This document shows positions 10,622 to 33,173 of a DNA stretch of 33,513 bases, piece after piece; the stretch's first letter is position 1, and each line of letters begins with the position of its first letter. Source of the DNA: a virus; the IMG/VR virus record IMGVR_UViG_3300009509_000070, positions 1 to 33,513 of that record. One strand, written 5' to 3'. Under the pieces are notes generated by a model. The model had not been told where the DNA came from and searched no databases. It worked only from the letters and a program-made list of their open reading frames with translations. The position numbers and the translations under genes are program-made.

Positions 10622-10792
10622 GTGGATAGCCGAACCGGCCCTCATGTGTGGTTCGCGCTTTTTGCGAACGGCGCGAACGCGGGCCGCCTTTGTCTTAGAG
10701 AGTACGAGTTCGATACCTTCGTGACGCATCTAGGTCTTGAGCGGCACATGTCGGGTGTCATCGAGTACTACAAATGGCCGACGATCGTCTAA
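10622..10792 (+). CDS. Small hypothetical protein, 56 aa
   Basis: The frame reads convincingly (PHVWFALFANGANAGRLCLR, then YEFDTFVTHLGLERHMSG) and ends at TAA 10790-10792. GTG 10622 is the only usual start in the folded part; its ribosome site is weak (AAGG about 12 bases upstream), so an unusual start cannot be excluded. The next gene begins inside its last 19 bases in another frame, a compact arrangement typical of phages. No family was recognised. Confidence 0.6.
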   Translation: MDSRTGPHVWFALFANGANAGRLCLREYEFDTFVTHLGLERHMSGVIEYYKWPTIV

Positions 10793-11265
10793 GGCGCCTC
10801 GAGAGGCAGGCTGCGCTCGGTGACGAAGACGCAATCGTTCGTCTTGCCACCGAGCTTGTGCGTACTCGGAACGAGGAAGATCTTCTTCCCATTCTGAACA
10901 TGCTGCAGGGTCTCGTTCGACGGAATCCGACGGCGCGCGAGGTCTTTGTGGCCGTCCTTCCTCCCAATGCGCATGCTTTCTGCGTTCACTGCGGCAAACC
11001 AATTGTGCTCTTCACTGACGGGTTTCCCGTCGACCAAACCGGAAAGGATTCGGCAAAAGGCAAGGTCTTTTGCAATGAATGCAACGCGCACCCTTACCGT
11101 CGTCGGCGCGCTCTCAAACACAGATACTGCGGTCGGTGCGGCGTGGTAAAACGCACGTCGGGCCATCGATGCACGACGACGTTGCCTGACTGGATTGTGG
11201 GAGACGACACGGGAAGCACGAAACGGCCCCGCAAGCACTGGACAAACTGGCGGGAAGTCACGTGA
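10774..11265 (+). CDS. Multi-CxxC zinc-binding protein, 163 aa
   Basis: ATG start overlapping the previous gene by 19 bases. The N-terminus MADDRLRRLERQAALGDEDA resembles a short helical leader shared by many phage and bacterial hypothetical proteins. Three Cys pairs follow: 70/73 (CVHC), 100/103 (CNEC) and 119/122 (CGRC), plus His131 and Cys133. These could form one zinc ribbon plus one further site. The C-terminus is basic. DNA or RNA binding is plausible but not shown. Its stop overlaps the thymidine kinase start (GTGA), so the two are translationally coupled. Confidence 0.75.
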   Translation: MADDRLRRLERQAALGDEDAIVRLATELVRTRNEEDLLPILNMLQGLVRRNPTAREVFVAVLPPNAHAFCVHCGKPIVLFTDGFPVDQTGKDSAKGKVFCNECNAHPYRRRRALKHRYCGRCGVVKRTSGHRCTTTLPDWIVGDDTGSTKRPRKHWTNWREVT

Positions 11266-11879
11266 AGAAGCTGACGGTTTGGGTCGGGCCAACCGGCTCC
11301 GAAAAAACGACCAAAGCAATGCTCCTCGTTCACCGGTATCACAAGAGGAAGCTCGACATCGTCGCTGCTCGTCCGGCGAAAGCTCGTCGCAAGCACGAAC
11401 CAGAAGGCTGGATTGTCTCGAAGGGCAAGTACGACCTGCGTTGGCCTTGCTTCGAGATCAACCATCCCTTCGAGATCATCGAAGCGGCCCGCGGAGCCCA
11501 AGTTTTCTGGCTCGATGAGCCGGTTCACCTGGAGAGCAAAGAGAAGGACATCACTGGAGACGACGTTTTCAACGCGATCATGGAAGTGCGCAAGCACGCG
11601 TTGATTCTGATCTCTGGTTGCGCGGCGACGTCCGAGCTCGAAGTGTTTGGGGACTGCACGTCGAAGCTGATCTCGGTTGCTGACATGGTCCATTGGTGCT
11701 TCGCCGACTGCGAAGGCTGTGGGCGCATGAATGCAGGAAGTCGTTCTTGGTACAAGCTCGGCCCGAAGACTGAGCAAGTAGCCATCGGCGGCGAAGAGGC
11801 CTACGAACCGCTCTGTTGGAGATGCTGGAACAGGCGAATGGAGGAGAGGGTCCTTGAGCAGGCGACGACGAGCGCGTAA
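11262..11879 (+). CDS. tdk: Thymidine kinase, type II, with altered P-loop
   Basis: Thymidine kinase phosphorylates thymidine to dTMP with ATP in the salvage pathway. Matches to the type II family are a P-loop at residues 9-17 (GPTGSEKTT), the DE pair at 85-86 (VFWLDEPVHL), the GLDATF-type loop seen here as SGCAATSELEVFG (118-130), a zinc site of Cys150, Cys153, Cys185 and Cys188 (CEGCGR and CWRCW), and the IGGEEAYEPLC motif at 176-185. Length (205) is normal. The P-loop has Glu14 where the family has the Gly before the catalytic Lys15, which is odd and could weaken ATP binding. GTG start by GTGA overlap. It belongs with the deoxynucleoside kinase and dNMP kinase at 17565-18868. Confidence 0.85.
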   Translation: MKKLTVWVGPTGSEKTTKAMLLVHRYHKRKLDIVAARPAKARRKHEPEGWIVSKGKYDLRWPCFEINHPFEIIEAARGAQVFWLDEPVHLESKEKDITGDDVFNAIMEVRKHALILISGCAATSELEVFGDCTSKLISVADMVHWCFADCEGCGRMNAGSRSWYKLGPKTEQVAIGGEEAYEPLCWRCWNRRMEERVLEQATTSA

Positions 11880-12284: not shown

Positions 12285-14345
12285 ATGGTCTTCATCCCTT
12301 CCATCCTTTCCAAGTATCCCGAAATCGAAGAAGCCTTCGAGGCGTGTCGCGCAGCTTCGCTGTACGCCTTCGATGCCGAGACCTCATCGTTCAATCCATT
12401 CACCGGGAAGATCATCGGCTTCTCGGTAGCAGTGGACACGATTCAGATCCCTTGCAACTGCTTTCACAATTGCTGTCCGCCAGAAACACTGTTCCCGAAA
12501 GCGTGGTACTTTCAGTTCGTCCCGTCGTTGAATACGCACCTGTCTCACGACGAAGCGTTCGCGCGAAATCCAAGAACCTGCGTGCCCTTCTTGCCCACCA
12601 TGAAGCTCTTCGGCGAGGTCTGGGCAGATCGGGATAAGGAGTGCGTGTACCACAACGGGAAGTTCGACATCAAGTTTCAGCGTCGGGCTGGCTTCGAGGT
12701 CGATAACAGGATCATTGATACCGCCGTCGCATCGTGGCTTCTCGACGAAGAGCGCGGAACACACAAGTTGAAGAACTTGGTGAAGATGCTCTTGGGCCAC
12801 GACATGGCCACGTTTGAAGAAATGGGATCGCTTTTCGGTCCGCCGATCGAAGTCTACGGTGCCGACGATGCCTGTCAGACCCTCCGACTTTGGCGGTATT
12901 TCGAGCCATCGATCAGGAGTGAGAGGCTGGAGAAGGTCTTCAAGGAGTTGGAGTGCGAGATCGTTGGTGTTCTCGCCGATATGGAGCTTCGCGGAACACG
13001 GATTGACATCAAGTTGCTCGAGGAACTGCGGGGGAAGATCGCCGACGAGGCAGATCAAGTCGAGCAAGAATGCTACGCCCTCGCTGGGCAGCGCTTCGGG
13101 ATCACCGCTCCTCAACAGGTCGGGACGCTACTCTTCGACGTGCTGCAGTGGCCCAAGCGGGGGCAGATTCCCCGCACGAAGGACAAGCTCGGGTGGCGGA
13201 CGAACAAGGAAATCCTCGCCCGGTATGAGGACAAGCCGCTGGCGAAGGGAATCCTGAGACACCGTGAGCTCCTGAAGTTCGAGTCCACCTACATCGATCC
13301 CTTGATTCGGGCCGCACAGAAACTTGATGGCCGTGTGCGGTCGCGCTTCAACCAGATCCCGGACCCCCGGGGAGGCGGAGGAACTGTTTCGGGGCGGTTG
13401 TCATCGAACGCAGATGAAGATCTGGGAGGATGCAACTTCCAAAACATCCCCTCGAGATCCAAGACGGGCAAGCAGATTCGCTTTGCGTTCATTCCGGCGC
13501 CCGAGTTCGTGTACGTCGTTTACGACTACAGTCAGATCGAGCTCCGATTCATGGCGCACTACAGTCAAGACCGAACGCTGCTTGCGGCGTACAGGAACTG
13601 GGAGTGCGCGGAGTGCGGCGAGAGGGGCGGCACGAAGATCGGTCTCCGAGAGTGTCCGAACTGTCATGCGCCCGAGGGCCACCGTACGCGCGAGAAGAAG
13701 TGCAAGACCTGTCAGGACTACGACGGGCCGGAAGATCGATTGATCCACGGCTTCTGCCTGGGGCTGGACATTCACCAGATCACGGCAGATGCATGCGGAG
13801 TCGAGCGCTACCTCGGTAAGATCGTGAACTTCGCTCTCTTGTATGGACTTGGTGCCGAGGGACTGTCTCGCAAGCTGAACTGCAGCGTGGGGCAAGCGCG
13901 CAAGATTCGGGATGCCTACTTCCGCAAGTACTCAGGAATCCAACGGCACAACGGGTGGGTCCAGACGCACATCATGCGGACTGGCGAGATGCCCACGATC
14001 CTCAAGCGGAAGCGGCGGTTCCCGCATATCAAAGGCAAGCGGCTCGAACTCTGGGACCGCGAGTGGAGGCAGGGAGCGAACAACATCATTCAAGGGTCCG
14101 CCGCGGATCTCATGAAAGTCGCTATGCGGAATGTTCATCGACGGTTGCGACATGAAAATCTGCATCTCGATACCGGGCTCGTTCTGCAGGTTCATGACGA
14201 GATGACGGTCGAGACTCCTCAACATCGCGGGGACTACATCTCGACGCTCGTTCGTGATGAAATGGAGAATGCATTCAGGATCAGTGTCCCGATCATTGCC
14301 GAGGGCGGGGTGTCCTCGAAGAGTTGGGGCGACGCCAAGCAGTAG
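12285..14345 (+). CDS. Family A DNA polymerase with 3'-5' exonuclease and Cys-rich insertion
   Basis: This is the phage replicative polymerase. An N-terminal DnaQ-like exonuclease shows Exo I (DAE, Asp30/Glu32), Exo II (YHNGKFDIKF) and Exo III (YGADD). No 5' nuclease domain is present. Polymerase motif A is DYSQIELR starting at Asp414; motif B is Arg508-x3-Lys512-x3-Phe516-x3-Tyr520-Gly; motif C is VHDE with Asp638. Phe516 matches the Phe762 position of E. coli Pol I. Between LLAAY and DIHQITAD, where E. coli Pol I has only a short link, about 55 residues are inserted with three CxxC pairs (441/444, 457/460, 473/476). GGGAG upstream supports the start. It follows the salvage gene cluster and precedes the helicase. 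Confidence 0.95.
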   Translation: MVFIPSILSKYPEIEEAFEACRAASLYAFDAETSSFNPFTGKIIGFSVAVDTIQIPCNCFHNCCPPETLFPKAWYFQFVPSLNTHLSHDEAFARNPRTCVPFLPTMKLFGEVWADRDKECVYHNGKFDIKFQRRAGFEVDNRIIDTAVASWLLDEERGTHKLKNLVKMLLGHDMATFEEMGSLFGPPIEVYGADDACQTLRLWRYFEPSIRSERLEKVFKELECEIVGVLADMELRGTRIDIKLLEELRGKIADEADQVEQECYALAGQRFGITAPQQVGTLLFDVLQWPKRGQIPRTKDKLGWRTNKEILARYEDKPLAKGILRHRELLKFESTYIDPLIRAAQKLDGRVRSRFNQIPDPRGGGGTVSGRLSSNADEDLGGCNFQNIPSRSKTGKQIRFAFIPAPEFVYVVYDYSQIELRFMAHYSQDRTLLAAYRNWECAECGERGGTKIGLRECPNCHAPEGHRTREKKCKTCQDYDGPEDRLIHGFCLGLDIHQITADACGVERYLGKIVNFALLYGLGAEGLSRKLNCSVGQARKIRDAYFRKYSGIQRHNGWVQTHIMRTGEMPTILKRKRRFPHIKGKRLELWDREWRQGANNIIQGSAADLMKVAMRNVHRRLRHENLHLDTGLVLQVHDEMTVETPQHRGDYISTLVRDEMENAFRISVPIIAEGGVSSKSWGDAKQ

Positions 14346-14741: not shown

Positions 14742-16109
14742 GTGAATAGGATCGTACTCGATTCGATGGTGCGCATTCCGCTCGAGATGTTCACGGAGGA
14801 ACGCCTCCGTCGGATCGAGCGATCCTTGACACTGCGGACCCCCGACACCGGCAACTTCGGTTTCGAGGGCGTTCGTACCATGGAGTGCTTCGAGAGGACG
14901 AATGGAGTGCTGGCGGTTCCCCGGAATTGGGGCCCGGCCAGGGAGCTCTTGTCGCTCAATGGTTTCGATGACCAACGGGCTCAGGGCTCGATCATCGGTC
15001 TCAGGTTCGGGGCACACTTCCGTCCAGGACAGAAGGAGTTCTGCGAGAAGCTCGTTCACGCGATCAGGCAAGACGGGCTGGGAGGAATCGGGCACGCAGC
15101 TTGCGGATTCGGTAAGACCGTTTGCGCGACAGCGATCATCTCAATGCTCGATGTCACAACGATCGTGATCGTCCACAAGGAGTTCCTCATGAACCAGTGG
15201 GCGAAAGAGATCAGGACGTTCCTTGGCGTAGAGCCCGGGTTTGTTCAGGGCGATCGGTGCGAATTCGAGGGCCAGAAGATCGTGATCGCCATGGTGCAGT
15301 CTCTGGCGCAGCGAGAGTACGCACCCGAGTTCTACCGGCACTTTGGGTTGGTGATCACCGATGAGGCACACCGGGTAGCTGCTCCGACGTGGTCGCTCGC
15401 CAACTGCAGGTTCCCTTCGAAGTGGCGGCTCGGACTCACAGCGACGCCTCGGCGCGGCGACAAGATGGAGGAGGTGTTCTTTTGGAACATCGGGGACATC
15501 CTCGTTCGAGGTTTGGGGGACTTCCTCGATTGCTCTGTTGTCCGCGTCATTTGGTGCCCAGCGATCAATCCCAAGTCCTACGTGTTCCGGGGCCAGCCCA
15601 ATCTGGGCAAGCTGATCACGCTGATTGCGAACGAAGGCTCGCGGACAGCCATGCTCTGTCGCATGATCGCCAAGGCGACACGGGCGGGGCGCAAGTCGCT
15701 CGTTCTGTCAGATCGTGTGGCCCACTGCGAGGACATGAAAGAGCGACTCGAGCTCATGTTCGAGAACGAGGACTACACCGTAGGGATCTATGGCGCGGGA
15801 GGGACAAAGAAGGCGAAGCACCAGCGAGATGCAACCGAGAAATGCAACGTCATCATCGCCACGTGGCCGATGGCTAAGGAGGGACTCGACATCGAAGAAC
15901 TCGACACCCTCTTTATGGCTACGCCCAAGGCGGACGTCGAGCAGGCCGCGGGGCGTATTCGTAGGCTCTGTGATACCAAGAAGAACCCCATGATCGTCGA
16001 CATCGTCGATGACATTCCGTTCCTCGCCCCAATCAATGCGAAGCGTGATCGGTTCTATCGACGAGTGGAGCGCGCGAAGAACGCGTGGCCGATCCAAGTC
16101 GTTCGGTAG
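14742..16109 (+). CDS. DEAH-box superfamily II helicase (UvsW/XPB-like), 455 aa
   Basis: Helicase motifs in order: Q-like region RPGQKEFCEKLV, motif I AACGFGKT with Lys125, motif II DEAH (Asp207), motif III region LTATP with RRGD after it, and motif VI QAAGRIRRL. The layout and length match UvsW/XPB-type helicases of phages, which reverse stalled forks, unwind recombination intermediates and process R-loops at origins. The first 85 residues before the helicase core form an N-terminal domain of the kind seen in that group. GTG 14742 is taken as start because of the short promoter leader; ATG 14766 is an alternative, also without a ribosome site. Likely works with the RecA-like, RuvC-like and nuclease genes downstream. 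Confidence 0.88.
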   Translation: MNRIVLDSMVRIPLEMFTEERLRRIERSLTLRTPDTGNFGFEGVRTMECFERTNGVLAVPRNWGPARELLSLNGFDDQRAQGSIIGLRFGAHFRPGQKEFCEKLVHAIRQDGLGGIGHAACGFGKTVCATAIISMLDVTTIVIVHKEFLMNQWAKEIRTFLGVEPGFVQGDRCEFEGQKIVIAMVQSLAQREYAPEFYRHFGLVITDEAHRVAAPTWSLANCRFPSKWRLGLTATPRRGDKMEEVFFWNIGDILVRGLGDFLDCSVVRVIWCPAINPKSYVFRGQPNLGKLITLIANEGSRTAMLCRMIAKATRAGRKSLVLSDRVAHCEDMKERLELMFENEDYTVGIYGAGGTKKAKHQRDATEKCNVIIATWPMAKEGLDIEELDTLFMATPKADVEQAAGRIRRLCDTKKNPMIVDIVDDIPFLAPINAKRDRFYRRVERAKNAWPIQVVR

Positions 16110-17341: not shown

Positions 17342-17599
17342 GTGTCAAAACGCAAGCGAAAGAAGCAGCCCCCCAAAGGTCTCGCTCGTCCAATCATGAT
17401 TCGCCGTCGGAGTCCGCAGGAGGAAAAGGAGGACGAAATCGCTCCTGAGCGAGCTCGGTTGCTCGAGGAAATCGGACAAGCGAAGAAAGAAAAAGCGAGG
17501 CAGAGACAAGAGAGGCGCGCTCAACGGAAGGCATCTCTGGCGTTGAAGCAAAGGCAAGGCAGCAATGTCGGAAATGACGCAGAAGGTGCTGGAAGTTGA
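17342..17599 (+). CDS. Small highly charged protein, 85 aa
   Basis: GTG 17342 begins a Lys/Arg/Glu-rich frame (SKRKRKKQPPKGLARP, then RARLLEEIGQAKKEKARQRQ). It is probably one long helix after a basic tail. The upstream ribosome site is weak (AGAG 8 bases before). It overlaps the deoxynucleoside kinase by 35 bases in another frame. No family was recognised; low complexity lowers confidence. Confidence 0.55.
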   Translation: MSKRKRKKQPPKGLARPIMIRRRSPQEEKEDEIAPERARLLEEIGQAKKEKARQRQERRAQRKASLALKQRQGSNVGNDAEGAGS

Positions 17600-18302
17600 C
17601 ATCGGCGAGGTGCTTCAAGCTCTGCCCCATCTTCGGGACGCTCGAGGCGCATTCATCGGCGTAGAGGCGAACATCGGGGCCGGGAAGACCGAGCTCGCCA
17701 ACATGCTGACTCGAATTCGGCAGGCCCACAACGGCCCAACCATGACGCTCTTCGAGCCGATCATGGGGAGGTTCGAGGAGCTTCTCGGGCTCTACTACGA
17801 AGATCCGAAGCGGTGGGGTTTCACCTTCCAGATGCACGCTCTGCAGGCGCGCTATCGGCAGCATACGCTGGCCGCAGAGCTCACTGCCAACGGACTTCAC
17901 GTCGTGCAGGACCGCACGATCTACGCCGATGGATGCTTCGGCATGACCGTCCGTGAAGACGGGAACATGACGGAGGCGGAGTGGGGGATCTACGCCGACA
18001 CGTTCGGTGCTATGAAGCGGAATCTCCGCTACCCCGACATCATCGTCTACCTCGTCACGGACCCGAAGGTCTGCCACGAACGGATGGTCCGGCGGGCCCG
18101 GAAGGAAGAGAAGGCGGTCCCCCTCGAGTACCTCGAGCGGATCCACACCAAGCACGAGATGCTCGCCGAGGCCATGTGCCGCTACACGCGGGTCCTGCGT
18201 GTCCACTGGAATGAGTTCGGGGACGTCGAGCAGTTGAACAAGCAGATCAACGAGGTGCTCGAGGAAGAGCGCCCCTTCATGCGTAACTGGAACTCGCTCT
18301 AG
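17565..18302 (+). CDS. Deoxynucleoside kinase (dCK/dGK-like), 245 aa
   Basis: Phosphorylates deoxynucleosides to their monophosphates using a nucleoside triphosphate. Family marks are a P-loop at residues 33-42 (VEANIGAGKT, Lys41), the FEP motif with Glu64, the DRT version of the DRS motif (116-118, substrate base), and an Arg-rich lid (ERMVRRARKEEKAVPLEYL, 172-190). Length is normal. GGCAAGG upstream supports ATG 17565. It is three bases from the dNMP kinase, so the two steps of nucleotide salvage are made together, alongside thymidine kinase upstream. The exact base preference cannot be read. Confidence 0.9.
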   Translation: MSEMTQKVLEVDIGEVLQALPHLRDARGAFIGVEANIGAGKTELANMLTRIRQAHNGPTMTLFEPIMGRFEELLGLYYEDPKRWGFTFQMHALQARYRQHTLAAELTANGLHVVQDRTIYADGCFGMTVREDGNMTEAEWGIYADTFGAMKRNLRYPDIIVYLVTDPKVCHERMVRRARKEEKAVPLEYLERIHTKHEMLAEAMCRYTRVLRVHWNEFGDVEQLNKQINEVLEEERPFMRNWNSL

Positions 18303-18304
18303 CC

Positions 18305-18868
18305 ATGAAGACCGTCTTCCTGATCTGTGGGCAGCTTCAGAGCGGGAAAGACACCTTCGGCCAACTTCTCGCCAAGGCCGGGGGCGGAATCACCATCGCA
18401 ATCGCGGATCCAATCAAGGAAGTCGCCATTTCGATGCTGGGCATGCCGTCCGCTGTGGCGTACGGTGGGGAGAAGGAGCGCCGGTCGTGGACGCGCTACG
18501 GAAAGGACGCCCGCGAGTGGCTGCAGTGGATCGGGACTGAGCTCGGTCGGGCACAGATCGCTCAGGAAGTCTGGCTCGATCGGCTCGTGGAACGGATCGA
18601 ACCTCGATGCATGAAGGCTTTCGTGGTTACTGACGCACGACTCGGTTTCGAGCTCGAGAAGATCGGACCCAAACTGGGGGAGCGTTACCGGACGGTGAAG
18701 ATTCGTATTCGCCGGCCGGGGGCCGAGAACAAACTGGAGCATCAGACGGAATCCGAGCAGCAGGAAATCCCTGATTCCGTGTTCGACGAAGTGGTTGTGA
18801 ACAAGGGGACTCTGCAAGATCTTGAACAACAGGCACTTGATATCGCCAAGAAATACCTTGCATCCTGA
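18305..18868 (+). CDS. Deoxynucleoside monophosphate kinase-like protein, 187 aa
   Basis: Fits phage dNMP kinases (T4 gp1-like): P-loop at residues 9-17 (GQLQSGKDT, Lys15), the helical REWLQWIGTELGR motif at about 77-89, the strand-loop FVVTDARLGFELEKI (about 106-120), and a late HQTESEQQ element. It converts dNMPs to dNDPs. It starts 2 bases after the deoxynucleoside kinase stop. Its 3' end holds the -35 of the promoter for the next gene, so transcription may also restart here. Substrate specificity is not visible. Confidence 0.85.
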   Translation: MKTVFLICGQLQSGKDTFGQLLAKAGGGITIAIADPIKEVAISMLGMPSAVAYGGEKERRSWTRYGKDAREWLQWIGTELGRAQIAQEVWLDRLVERIEPRCMKAFVVTDARLGFELEKIGPKLGERYRTVKIRIRRPGAENKLEHQTESEQQEIPDSVFDEVVVNKGTLQDLEQQALDIAKKYLAS

Positions 18869-18902: not shown

Positions 18903-20180
18903 ATGGGCCTGCGGGAGATCCTGGAGGAAGTCGAGAGTACGTACGGCGTGGGTGTTGTCGCCCAGGCGTCGCGCGGACGCTCGTTCAAACATCAACGCTT
19001 TCCGACCATGGTGTTCGCATTCGATGCGGCGATCGGAGGAGGCCCGGTCTTCGGGAAGTTCCACTTGATCACGGGGCCCCCTGGCGCAGGAAAGTCGACG
19101 ATCACCCAGAAGGCGATGGCCGGGATCCAGTTGTACTGTCGGTACTGCCGCAGTCTCTTCCGGATCGACGAGCACGGCGTAACTACCTGTGCTTGCCCGA
19201 CTCGCTGTGCTGACTGCGAAACCGATTTCGAGGAGGTGCCCTACGATGGGCCCGAGCCCTCGGAAGATGACATGTTCAACTGGCGGGCGATCTGGGATCA
19301 CTGGACCTGTGCTTGCCTCGAGAACCCGGCTGGAACGAAGGCGAAGAAGGATCGGGTCCCGAAAGTCACCAAGCGGTTCTCGCCCATGCGGTCGGCTTGG
19401 TTCGATTCGGAAGCCGACTATGATGCCAACTGGGCAGCCAACCTCGGGGTGGACAACGACCTGGTCTACGTATTCGTTCCTGAGTACGCCGAGCAGGGAA
19501 TCGACATCTCGGACAAGCTGCTGCGGTCGGGGGAGATCGATTTCCTCGGCGTAGATTCGGTCGCAGACTTGACCCCCATGAAGGAGATCGAGTCGTCTAC
19601 CGAAGAGTGGCAGATGGGTCTGCAGGCGCGACTCGTCAACAAGGCCTTCCGAAAGTGGGGATCCGCTCTCAACGCATGCGGCGCCAATTCGGTCTCGCGT
19701 CCTACCGTGTTCATCATCAATCAAGAACGCGAGGACATGGAAGGGCACAAGGTCAACCCTGGGGGATGGGCGCAGCAGTTCAAGGCGCAGATCAAGGTGC
19801 GGATCTCGGAGCCCAAGTACAAGTTCAAGGAGCACGGAGCCGGGGACAACAAGGTCCAAGAGCTTCAGTACGCCGATGTCAGTGGCTTCACGTACAAGAA
19901 CAAGACGTACCCGCCCAAGAAGAGGATGTCGTACAGGCTCTACCTCGCCGATCATCCCGACCATCCGGCCGGAAGTACGAATGAATTCGGTTCCGTGGTG
20001 GACAACGCCCTGATCTATGGCGTGGTCGAACGTCCTGATCCGAAGAAGTCGACCTACATCTTCGGAGACAGTACGTGGAACAGCCAGAAAGCGATCATGG
20101 ATGCGTTGAGGGAAAGCCATGGATTGTTCTGGCAGATCCGTGACGAGACCATGCAGCGGGCTGTTCTGGCTATGGCATGA
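18903..20180 (+). CDS. RecA-like recombinase with large Cys-rich insertion, 425 aa
   Basis: Core RecA motifs: Walker A GPPGAGKST at 58-66 with Lys64, the FDSEADYDANWAANLGVD segment equivalent to the RecA strand carrying the catalytic Glu, Walker B in DFLGVDSVADLTPMKEIES, and the late FIINQEREDMEGHKVNPGGW region equivalent to RecA loop 2. It should coat single-stranded DNA and drive strand exchange or recombination-dependent replication. About 85 residues are inserted after the Walker A helix (about 78-165), with eight Cys (79, 82, 96, 98, 102, 105, 136, 138). RecA lacks this, so it is probably metal-binding. The C-terminus is longer than that of UvsX-type proteins. Short leader with GAGG as ribosome site. 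Confidence 0.85.
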   Translation: MGLREILEEVESTYGVGVVAQASRGRSFKHQRFPTMVFAFDAAIGGGPVFGKFHLITGPPGAGKSTITQKAMAGIQLYCRYCRSLFRIDEHGVTTCACPTRCADCETDFEEVPYDGPEPSEDDMFNWRAIWDHWTCACLENPAGTKAKKDRVPKVTKRFSPMRSAWFDSEADYDANWAANLGVDNDLVYVFVPEYAEQGIDISDKLLRSGEIDFLGVDSVADLTPMKEIESSTEEWQMGLQARLVNKAFRKWGSALNACGANSVSRPTVFIINQEREDMEGHKVNPGGWAQQFKAQIKVRISEPKYKFKEHGAGDNKVQELQYADVSGFTYKNKTYPPKKRMSYRLYLADHPDHPAGSTNEFGSVVDNALIYGVVERPDPKKSTYIFGDSTWNSQKAIMDALRESHGLFWQIRDETMQRAVLAMA

Positions 20181-32025: not shown

Positions 32026-32290
32026 CTGCGAGGACTGCTTCTTCTTGGGGCGTCTCGAACATTCGTGCGGTACCACTGGTCCGTGCGATCTCTACGTCTG
32101 CACGAAGGCACTTCCCTGGCCCACGGTGATCGCTCGGTACAGCAGCGACGGGCCCGATTACGCATCTGGCATGCTCTTCGCCAAGAGTGGCGAAATTCCC
32201 GAACTCACTGAGGCTCTCAAGCGGGCAGTCGAAATGGGTATCCTTACCTCGGAAGGAAGGGTGCCCAATGATCTTGGTGCTGTCGATTGA
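31979..32290 (+). CDS. Small Cys-rich protein, 103 aa
   Basis: GTG with GGAAGGTGAG upstream. Five Cys in the first 41 residues (17, 20, 30, 36, 41; HDCEDCFF, SCGTTGPCDLYVC) suggest a metal site. The rest is helical (ELTEALKRAVEMGIL). It overlaps Dam by 47 bases and the patatin gene by 23. Not assigned. Confidence 0.7.
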   Translation: MSKTKLKTEKPRWKHDCEDCFFLGRLEHSCGTTGPCDLYVCTKALPWPTVIARYSSDGPDYASGMLFAKSGEIPELTEALKRAVEMGILTSEGRVPNDLGAVD

Positions 32291-33173
32291 TGGCGGTGGT
32301 GTTCGGGGGGTTCTGACTGCGAAGCTGCTCGAGCGTATCGAAGCCGAGCGCCCCTTCTTGCGCCAAGTGGACGTATTCGCTGGGACTTCCGTGGGTGGGG
32401 TGCTGGCGCTCGCGCTAGCATGTGGCGAAAAACCAGACCGAATCATTCGGCTCTTCCAAGAGAAGGCGACGAAGATTTTCGGTAAGCGCGACTGGCTCGA
32501 TTCGGTATCGAAGCTGGATGAGCTCGTGCGCGCGGACTTCGACAATGTGGAGCTCAAGGCTGCTCTTCAAGAGATCTTCGGTGAGCGTTCGTTGAAGAGC
32601 GTTCCCAAGAACGTGCTGATCCCGACTTTCGATCTCGACAATGAGGGCGAGGGCGGGCTTCGGTTCTGGAAGCCGAAGTTCTTGCACAACTTCATGACCC
32701 CCGGAAACGACGGCGCGGTCAAGATCGTGGATGCATGCCTGCGCACCGGCGCAGCGCCTACGTACTTCCCGACCTACCAGGGCTACGTGGATGGCGGCGT
32801 CGTCTGCAACACGCCCTCGATGGCAGCTATCGCCAAGGTCTGCAAGGCGGGTTTCCGACTCGAGGATATCTACCTGTTCAGCATTGGGACGGGCTTCAAT
32901 CCCCAGTACATCGAGGGGGATCGTCTTGATTGGGGCTTCAAGCAGTGGCTCGACTACCTGCTTGCAATGCTCTTCGAGGGAATGGCCGGTGTCCCTGATT
33001 ACCAAGCCACACAACTCCTCGGTTCGCGGTACCACCGCATCGATGTCCCTCTCAACGAGGTGATCGCTCTGGATGCCGCGGATCGGATCGACGACCTCCT
33101 GCAGATCGGCGAGCTCGCGTCCATCGATGCCACGGTCACGTGGCTGCAGAAGGAGGTGCCGGTACTATCCTGA
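32268..33173 (+). CDS. Patatin-like phospholipase, 301 aa
   Basis: ATG with GGAAGGAAGGG upstream. The oxyanion hole DGGGVRG (8-14), the nucleophile Ser41 in GTSVG (39-43), and the Asp175-Gly-Gly of the dyad (GYVDGGVV) are all present, so the enzyme should be active as a lipid acyl hydrolase. There is no signal peptide or membrane helix, so it acts in the cytoplasm. Size and layout fit single-domain patatin proteins. It is the last gene of the operon with Dam. The lipid target and the benefit to the phage are unknown; see findings. Confidence 0.9.
   Translation: MILVLSIDGGGVRGVLTAKLLERIEAERPFLRQVDVFAGTSVGGVLALALACGEKPDRIIRLFQEKATKIFGKRDWLDSVSKLDELVRADFDNVELKAALQEIFGERSLKSVPKNVLIPTFDLDNEGEGGLRFWKPKFLHNFMTPGNDGAVKIVDACLRTGAAPTYFPTYQGYVDGGVVCNTPSMAAIAKVCKAGFRLEDIYLFSIGTGFNPQYIEGDRLDWGFKQWLDYLLAMLFEGMAGVPDYQATQLLGSRYHRIDVPLNEVIALDAADRIDDLLQIGELASIDATVTWLQKEVPVLS

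Follow-up and report, generated by a model that had tools for sequence, protein, structure and literature searches.

The polymerase encoded in the window (the whole stretch of viral DNA analysed, 33,513 nucleotides, IMG/VR record IMGVR_UViG_3300009509_000070) is best explained as a replicative phage Pol I-type enzyme with a grafted zinc ribbon that would act as a docking surface, a reading with a probability of about 0.5. This zinc-ribbon form of family A phage polymerase is real and conserved, and apparently undescribed. The ribbon marks an undescribed polymerase lineage of uncultured phages rather than a one-off oddity, because such phages supply at least 24 further distinct polymerases that have it. 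The polymerase gene and its main elements are as follows.

12285–14345, plus strand: family A DNA polymerase with a 3'-5' exonuclease domain, 686 amino acids, assigned from Pfam, PHROG, and solved relatives
13524–13547, plus strand: motif A DYSQIELR, residues 414–421, with D414 in 25/25 and E419 in 24/25 zinc-ribbon polymerases
13596–13766, plus strand: putative zinc-ribbon insertion, residues 438–494, between helix 430–437 and the DIH helix 496–504, placed by spacing, model, and conservation
13767–13775, plus strand: D495-I-H497, first residues of the helix after the insertion, with D and H in 25/25
13806–13847, plus strand: O-helix RYLGKIVNFALLYG, with R508, K512, F516, and Y520 (Klenow R754, K758, F762, and Y766), modelled as helix 508–519
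14187–14201, plus strand: motif C QVHDE, residues 635–639, with H, D, and E in 25/25

By domain score, motifs A, B, and C, and fold, the window polymerase is a Pol I-type family A enzyme. It matches Pfam DNA_pol_A with E=1.6e-89 (301 bits against a cut-off of 34.3 bits), DNA_pol_A_exo1 with 4.5e-12, and PHROG 17, DNA polymerase, with 3.5e-100. The closest solved structures are Bst Pol I and the Klenow fragment. In a Foldseek search of the whole enzyme, Bst Pol I is the best PDB match (E=1.1e-39), and the TM scores by query length are 0.74–0.78 for Bst and Klenow. The catalytic residues D414, E419, R508, K512, F516, H637, D638, and E639 are all present, as the original prediction had held, and the Exo I, II, and III residues D30, E32, D128, Y191, and D195 are present and conserved. 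Since both sets are kept, the polymerase would be expected to work as an active proofreading enzyme. One carrier of the insertion (L373:2792–4747, plus strand) has the motif A DVSQFQLR, in which the glutamate corresponding to Klenow E710 is replaced by glutamine. The exonuclease domain of the window enzyme (IPCNCFHNCCPP) comprises a second cysteine-rich loop, CNCFHNCC (residues 57–64, positions 12453–12476), which has a pLDDT below 50 and is absent from the relatives inspected. It is possibly another metal-binding loop private to the window phage.

The insertion is located by spacing. In the translation, LLAAY starts at residue 432 and DIHQITAD at residue 495, and 81 residues separate D414 from D495. 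The corresponding distance from motif A to DIH is 27–28 residues in 79 of the 80 bacterial PolA loci among the matches listed and in 64 of 80 viral PolA loci; the remaining bacterial locus of those listed, L329 (DFH), reads as uninserted. A spacing of 81 against 27–28 therefore indicates an insertion of about 54 residues. A phmmer alignment with Bst Pol I stops at residue 438 and restarts at 493, which confirms the insertion of about 55 residues originally placed between LLAAY and DIHQITAD. Its expected position near the fingers is borne out by the AlphaFold model, where it is placed at the base of the fingers. Across carriers, the insert is about 40 to 75 residues long. Three CxxC pairs within 45 residues occur in 23 of 20,000 shuffles of the window protein, and the invariance of four of the six cysteines in 25/25 polymerases is stronger evidence than this shuffle test.

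These 25 distinct sequences comprise the window protein and 24 IMG/VR relatives after the removal of near-copies (95% over the catalytic region). Carriers aligned over their full length have 27–36% identity to the window protein, and a close-relative search using the window protein alone gave no confirmed match. In IMG/VR, a pattern search for two CxxC pairs downstream of motif A yields the polymerase relatives L008, L011, L016, L039, L045, L054, and L061, to which L083 and L095 were added after the first scan. Profile and pattern searches contribute L197–L199, where the first pair is C-x-C. A query with the insertion alone returns 28 loci, and all 28 are ribbon-bearing polymerases. Two versions of a C-x-C pattern were unproductive: the CAG version gave six matches (two carriers already known and four by chance), and the 12 from the CAA version comprise L396, which is the record of L198, and others that failed the ribbon script. 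The cysteine positions in the window protein are the following.

13605–13616, plus strand: first putative ligand pair C441-A-E-C444, both cysteines in 25/25, mostly as CxxC and as CxC in four
13653–13664, plus strand: second putative ligand pair C457-P-N-C460, CPxC in 25/25
13701–13712, plus strand: third CxxC, C473-K-T-C476, private to the window protein, in a low-confidence loop
13746–13757, plus strand: H488-G-F-C491, with position 491 occupied by C in 8/25 and by W in 15/25

The residues invariant in all 25 polymerases are C441, C444, G448, C457, P458, C460, F490, G493, D495, and H497, while position 439 is W in 22/25 and Y in 3/25. The ligand spacing varies between CxxC and CxC across carriers without the loss of any cysteine. 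The third pair, C473/C476, is absent from all 24 distinct relatives. The polymerase L368:2816–4810 (plus strand) has a full extra four-cysteine motif (TCPNPKC...KTCGVC) in the same loop, and extra knuckles therefore come and go there. A second metal site of the C2HC type, formed by C473, C476, H488, and C491, is possible on paper; H488 and the third pair are unconserved, however, and the loop is poorly modelled. Metal binding had been proposed for all three CxxC pairs. It is supported for C441/C444 and C457/C460, which are invariant and modelled with a pLDDT of 96, whereas C473/C476 is private, lies in a loop with a pLDDT of about 50, and takes no part in the conserved site.

The AlphaFold model of the polymerase, built on an 83-sequence alignment, has a pTM of 0.91. 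The pLDDT by tens of residues is 96 at 431–440 and then 96, 96, 83, 49, 75, and 95 across 441–500. The loop of the third pair falls below 50 at 477–480 and has a mean of 49 over 471–480. The insertion is modelled as strands 438–441, 447–449, 466–468, 485–488, and 490–492, which together make a small beta ribbon. When the insertion fragment is folded by itself, these strands reappear, with a pLDDT of 83–89 over its first 30 residues. Structure prediction had been suggested as a check, and the metal-free model has the ribbon at high confidence at the first two pairs. The combination of cysteines in 25/25 and strands modelled at a pLDDT of 96 corresponds to two paired-cysteine knuckles on a beta ribbon. 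C441/C444 and C457/C460 are thus very probably the ligands of a rubredoxin-like, metal-binding ribbon, which would be grafted into the loop that joins the DIH helix to the helix following motif A. The four cysteines would hold one metal ion.

That metal is most likely zinc. The closest family resemblance of the insertion is to rubredoxin-like domains: of 12 insertions, 8 have a RUBY_RBDX match, at best with E=1.6e-5, and the top Foldseek matches of the insertion are rubrerythrin rubredoxin domains and LapB, which are non-significant (best E 0.71). In the window protein, DUF7130 matches below the cut-off, and no Pfam ribbon family is found at the cut-off. Given the resemblance to rubredoxin, iron could take the place of structural zinc, or the cysteines could serve as a switch that responds to redox state or metal. 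This is improbable, since domains of the rubredoxin type usually carry zinc when they lie within nucleic-acid enzymes, and the genes scanned include none recognisable as coding for an electron-transfer partner.

Purifying selection acts on the insertion. In close pairs of carriers, the dN/dS values of the insertion against the rest of the gene are 0.10 and 0.06 for L045/L061, 0.04 and 0.04 for L377/L382, and 0.11 and 0.19 for L365/L367, and are rough because the insertion provides only 35–45 codons. This selection, the conservation of the ligands in 25/25, and the in-frame state of the insert in every carrier make it extremely improbable that this is selfish or random DNA in decay and without function, for instance what is left of an intein or HNH element, even though intein-like inserts are known in phage polA (MT121960). 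The 54-residue insert has no splicing or endonuclease domain, and its family matches are only to zinc-ribbon-type families, all of them weak. The MT121960 gene (L195:3685–7950), a human-gut phage polymerase gene, has two apparent intein-like inserts.

A tree of 79 polymerases, calculated with the insertion columns removed, divides the carriers into two blocks: 15 with FWHG.D, and 10, including the window, mostly with FCLG.D. The 25-member tree implies two changes, whereas an earlier quick tree without the later members had scattered carriers and four changes. When all 25 are constrained together, the tree lies 13 log-likelihood units above the free search (AU p = 0.765). A single origin of the insertion is compatible with these data and is not rejected by AU tests on either the earlier or the 25-member set.

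In about 50,700 phage records, covered by protein searches with several carriers (two with the insertion alone) and by spot checks, the ribbon was seen in no named phage. It was also not seen in solved polymerases, nor, as a sample result, in the bacterial PolA genes among the matches listed. DP SC_2_H4 (MT121960) seemed to span the insertion; it has none, and its intein-like inserts are elsewhere. The phage-collection matches from Gordonia Lauer, Vibrio Ares1, Mycobacterium JacoRen57, and Thermus 15-6 were inspected and are without the insertion. A match to the insertion by itself, Bacillus phage G gp292, carries the annotation formamidopyrimidine DNA glycosylase. The original statement that no described family A polymerase has this insertion stands for named phages, solved structures, and the papers searched, but the insertion is not confined to the window, as it recurs in uncultured phages. 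The signature CPxC followed by GF..G.D(I/L)H is a usable marker of the lineage in viromes, and the zinc-ribbon polymerases are a new enzyme group for biochemistry.

The attachment of the ribbon bears on what it does. W439, F490, and the strand that returns (485–492) are the probable contacts by which the ribbon sits on the fingers, and the loop between the ribbon and this strand would tolerate changes in length and extra cysteines. The histidine of DIH touches the dNTP phosphates in the Klenow, Taq, and T7 polymerases, and H497 is presumably the equivalent of the phosphate-contacting Klenow H734. The ribbon is therefore anchored beside the nucleotide-binding helix. With a ribbon at this helix across a phage lineage, the conversion of a minimal Pol I-type enzyme into a replisome component can be put to the test. 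In the proposed mechanism, the ribbon would provide a rigid docking surface, on the side facing the fork, for a phage replication protein such as a helicase, primase, SSB, or recombinase. This protein-docking function is the likeliest of those considered and is put forward tentatively.

The same location on the fingers, adjoining the DIH histidine, is consistent with a DNA-contacting ribbon. Touching either the unwound template or, at the fork, the strand that is displaced, it would make the enzyme more processive or better at strand displacement. Nucleic acid is a frequent binding partner of zinc ribbons. Two insertions of the phiVC8 DpoZ polymerase are modelled touching the template DNA (PMC8599892). 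The net charge of the insertion ranges from +3 to -7, is zero or negative in 9 of 12, and reaches -7 in L054, and a conserved basic or aromatic patch is lacking besides W439 and F490, so that DNA contact appears rather unlikely. The mostly neutral-to-acidic insertions mildly favour protein contact over non-specific DNA binding.

Alternatively, the ribbon could be purely structural and have no outside partner, as a metal staple that would make the base of the fingers more rigid, or would tune fingers closing or dNTP binding through the DIH histidine. The invariant residues are all of the scaffold type (Cys, Gly, Pro, and Phe), and the insertion immediately precedes the invariant DIH motif. A staple of this kind is unlikely, given that bacterial PolA and most viral PolA enzymes function without the insertion, that the ribbon is bigger than a staple needs, and that its outer loop varies freely. 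For the docking surface, an invariant patch would be expected if one partner were shared, and none is present on the ribbon beyond the scaffold residues in the 25 sequences. This favours lineage-specific partners.

A candidate partner is encoded directly after the polymerase.

14742–16109, plus strand: SF2 (ResIII/DEAD-type) helicase, directly downstream of polA (ResIII 1.1e-27; PHROG 16, DNA helicase, 3e-44)

An SF2 (ResIII) helicase lies 0.3–1.4 kb downstream of polA on the same strand, measured domain to domain, in 13 of the 13 first-found records. With contigs that are often fragments, the SF2 helicase family is over the cut-off in 27/28 carrier records against 9/28 uninserted viral records. 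The uninserted relatives L205, L213, L233, L252, and L275 also have an SF2 helicase, and the association is therefore due at least in part to shared ancestry and singles out no partner. DnaB-type helicase matches occur in 25/28 carriers against 15/28 controls, and the window has no DnaB match. RecA-like matches are present in 10 of the 13 first-found carrier records, and the window encodes a RecA-like protein at 18903–20180. It is doubtful that the fingers ribbon specifically couples the PolA lineage to its own fork machinery, for example to the adjacent SF2 helicase. If it did, the coupling ribbon would constitute a kind of PolA holoenzyme undescribed so far.

Other genes of the window include a deoxynucleoside kinase (17565–18302) and an adjoining deoxynucleotide monophosphate kinase (18305–18868), which together with a thymidine kinase (11262–11879) make up an extensive nucleotide-salvage set. 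The thymidine kinase gene has CxxC pairs of its own and an unusual P-loop, GPTGSEKTT, and just upstream of it a small protein (10774–11265) contains CVHC, CNEC, and CGRC pairs. A patatin-like phospholipase gene (32187–33173; Pfam 5.3e-22) lies near the contig end.

Modules that bind metal are well known from family B and D polymerases and from primases. In the open-access literature, where a description published in a subscription journal could be missed, no family A polymerase with such a module was found. By term search, a zinc insertion in PolA is absent from two virioplankton PolA papers (PMC6302109 and PMC9069017), a phage polymerase review (PMC8775771), a study of polymerase swapping (PMC11348598), and a report on the Tt72 polymerase (PMC9324360). 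The first of these surveys mentions neither zinc nor insertions, and describes polA next to an SF2-type, SNF2-like helicase as a known arrangement (PMC6302109). Another point of likeness to the virioplankton PolA enzymes is that the window enzyme has Phe at the 762 position.

The Bst large fragment and the Klenow fragment have the same fold, the same motifs A, B, and C, and the same exonuclease motifs as the window enzyme, but are without the insertion (spacing 27 against 81). The PolA of the SPbeta-like Bacillus phage Goe12 (QMV49053) carries, at the site used in the window enzyme, an insertion of about 48 residues, with a motif A-to-DVH spacing of 75. In contrast to that of the window, it is Cys-poor, has no CxxC pair, and shows no sign of a metal site. 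Inserts have therefore entered this site at least twice, or else one of them no longer has its metal. The Goe12 gene (L362:1139–3430) is annotated as a hypothetical protein and reads as a family A polymerase. RUBY_RBDX and Zn_ribbon_LapB share with the insertion CxxC...CPxC and two short cysteine loops on a small beta ribbon, although the matches are weak and the insertion is embedded in a polymerase. A 2-aminoadenine link of the zinc-ribbon polymerases was rejected: a relative of PurZ/adenylosuccinate synthetase (PF00709) is found in none of the 11 window and carrier records, which may be fragments. The insertions of phiVC8 DpoZ, a PolA that prefers 2-aminoadenine, are between strands 7 and 8, in helix O, and between O1 and P, whereas that of the window is between helices 430–437 and 496–504 (PMC8599892).

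The thioredoxin-binding processivity insertion of the T7 polymerase is in the thumb, whereas the window insertion is in the fingers. The proposed docking ribbon would be comparable to the appendages of other polymerases in role, and not by homology.
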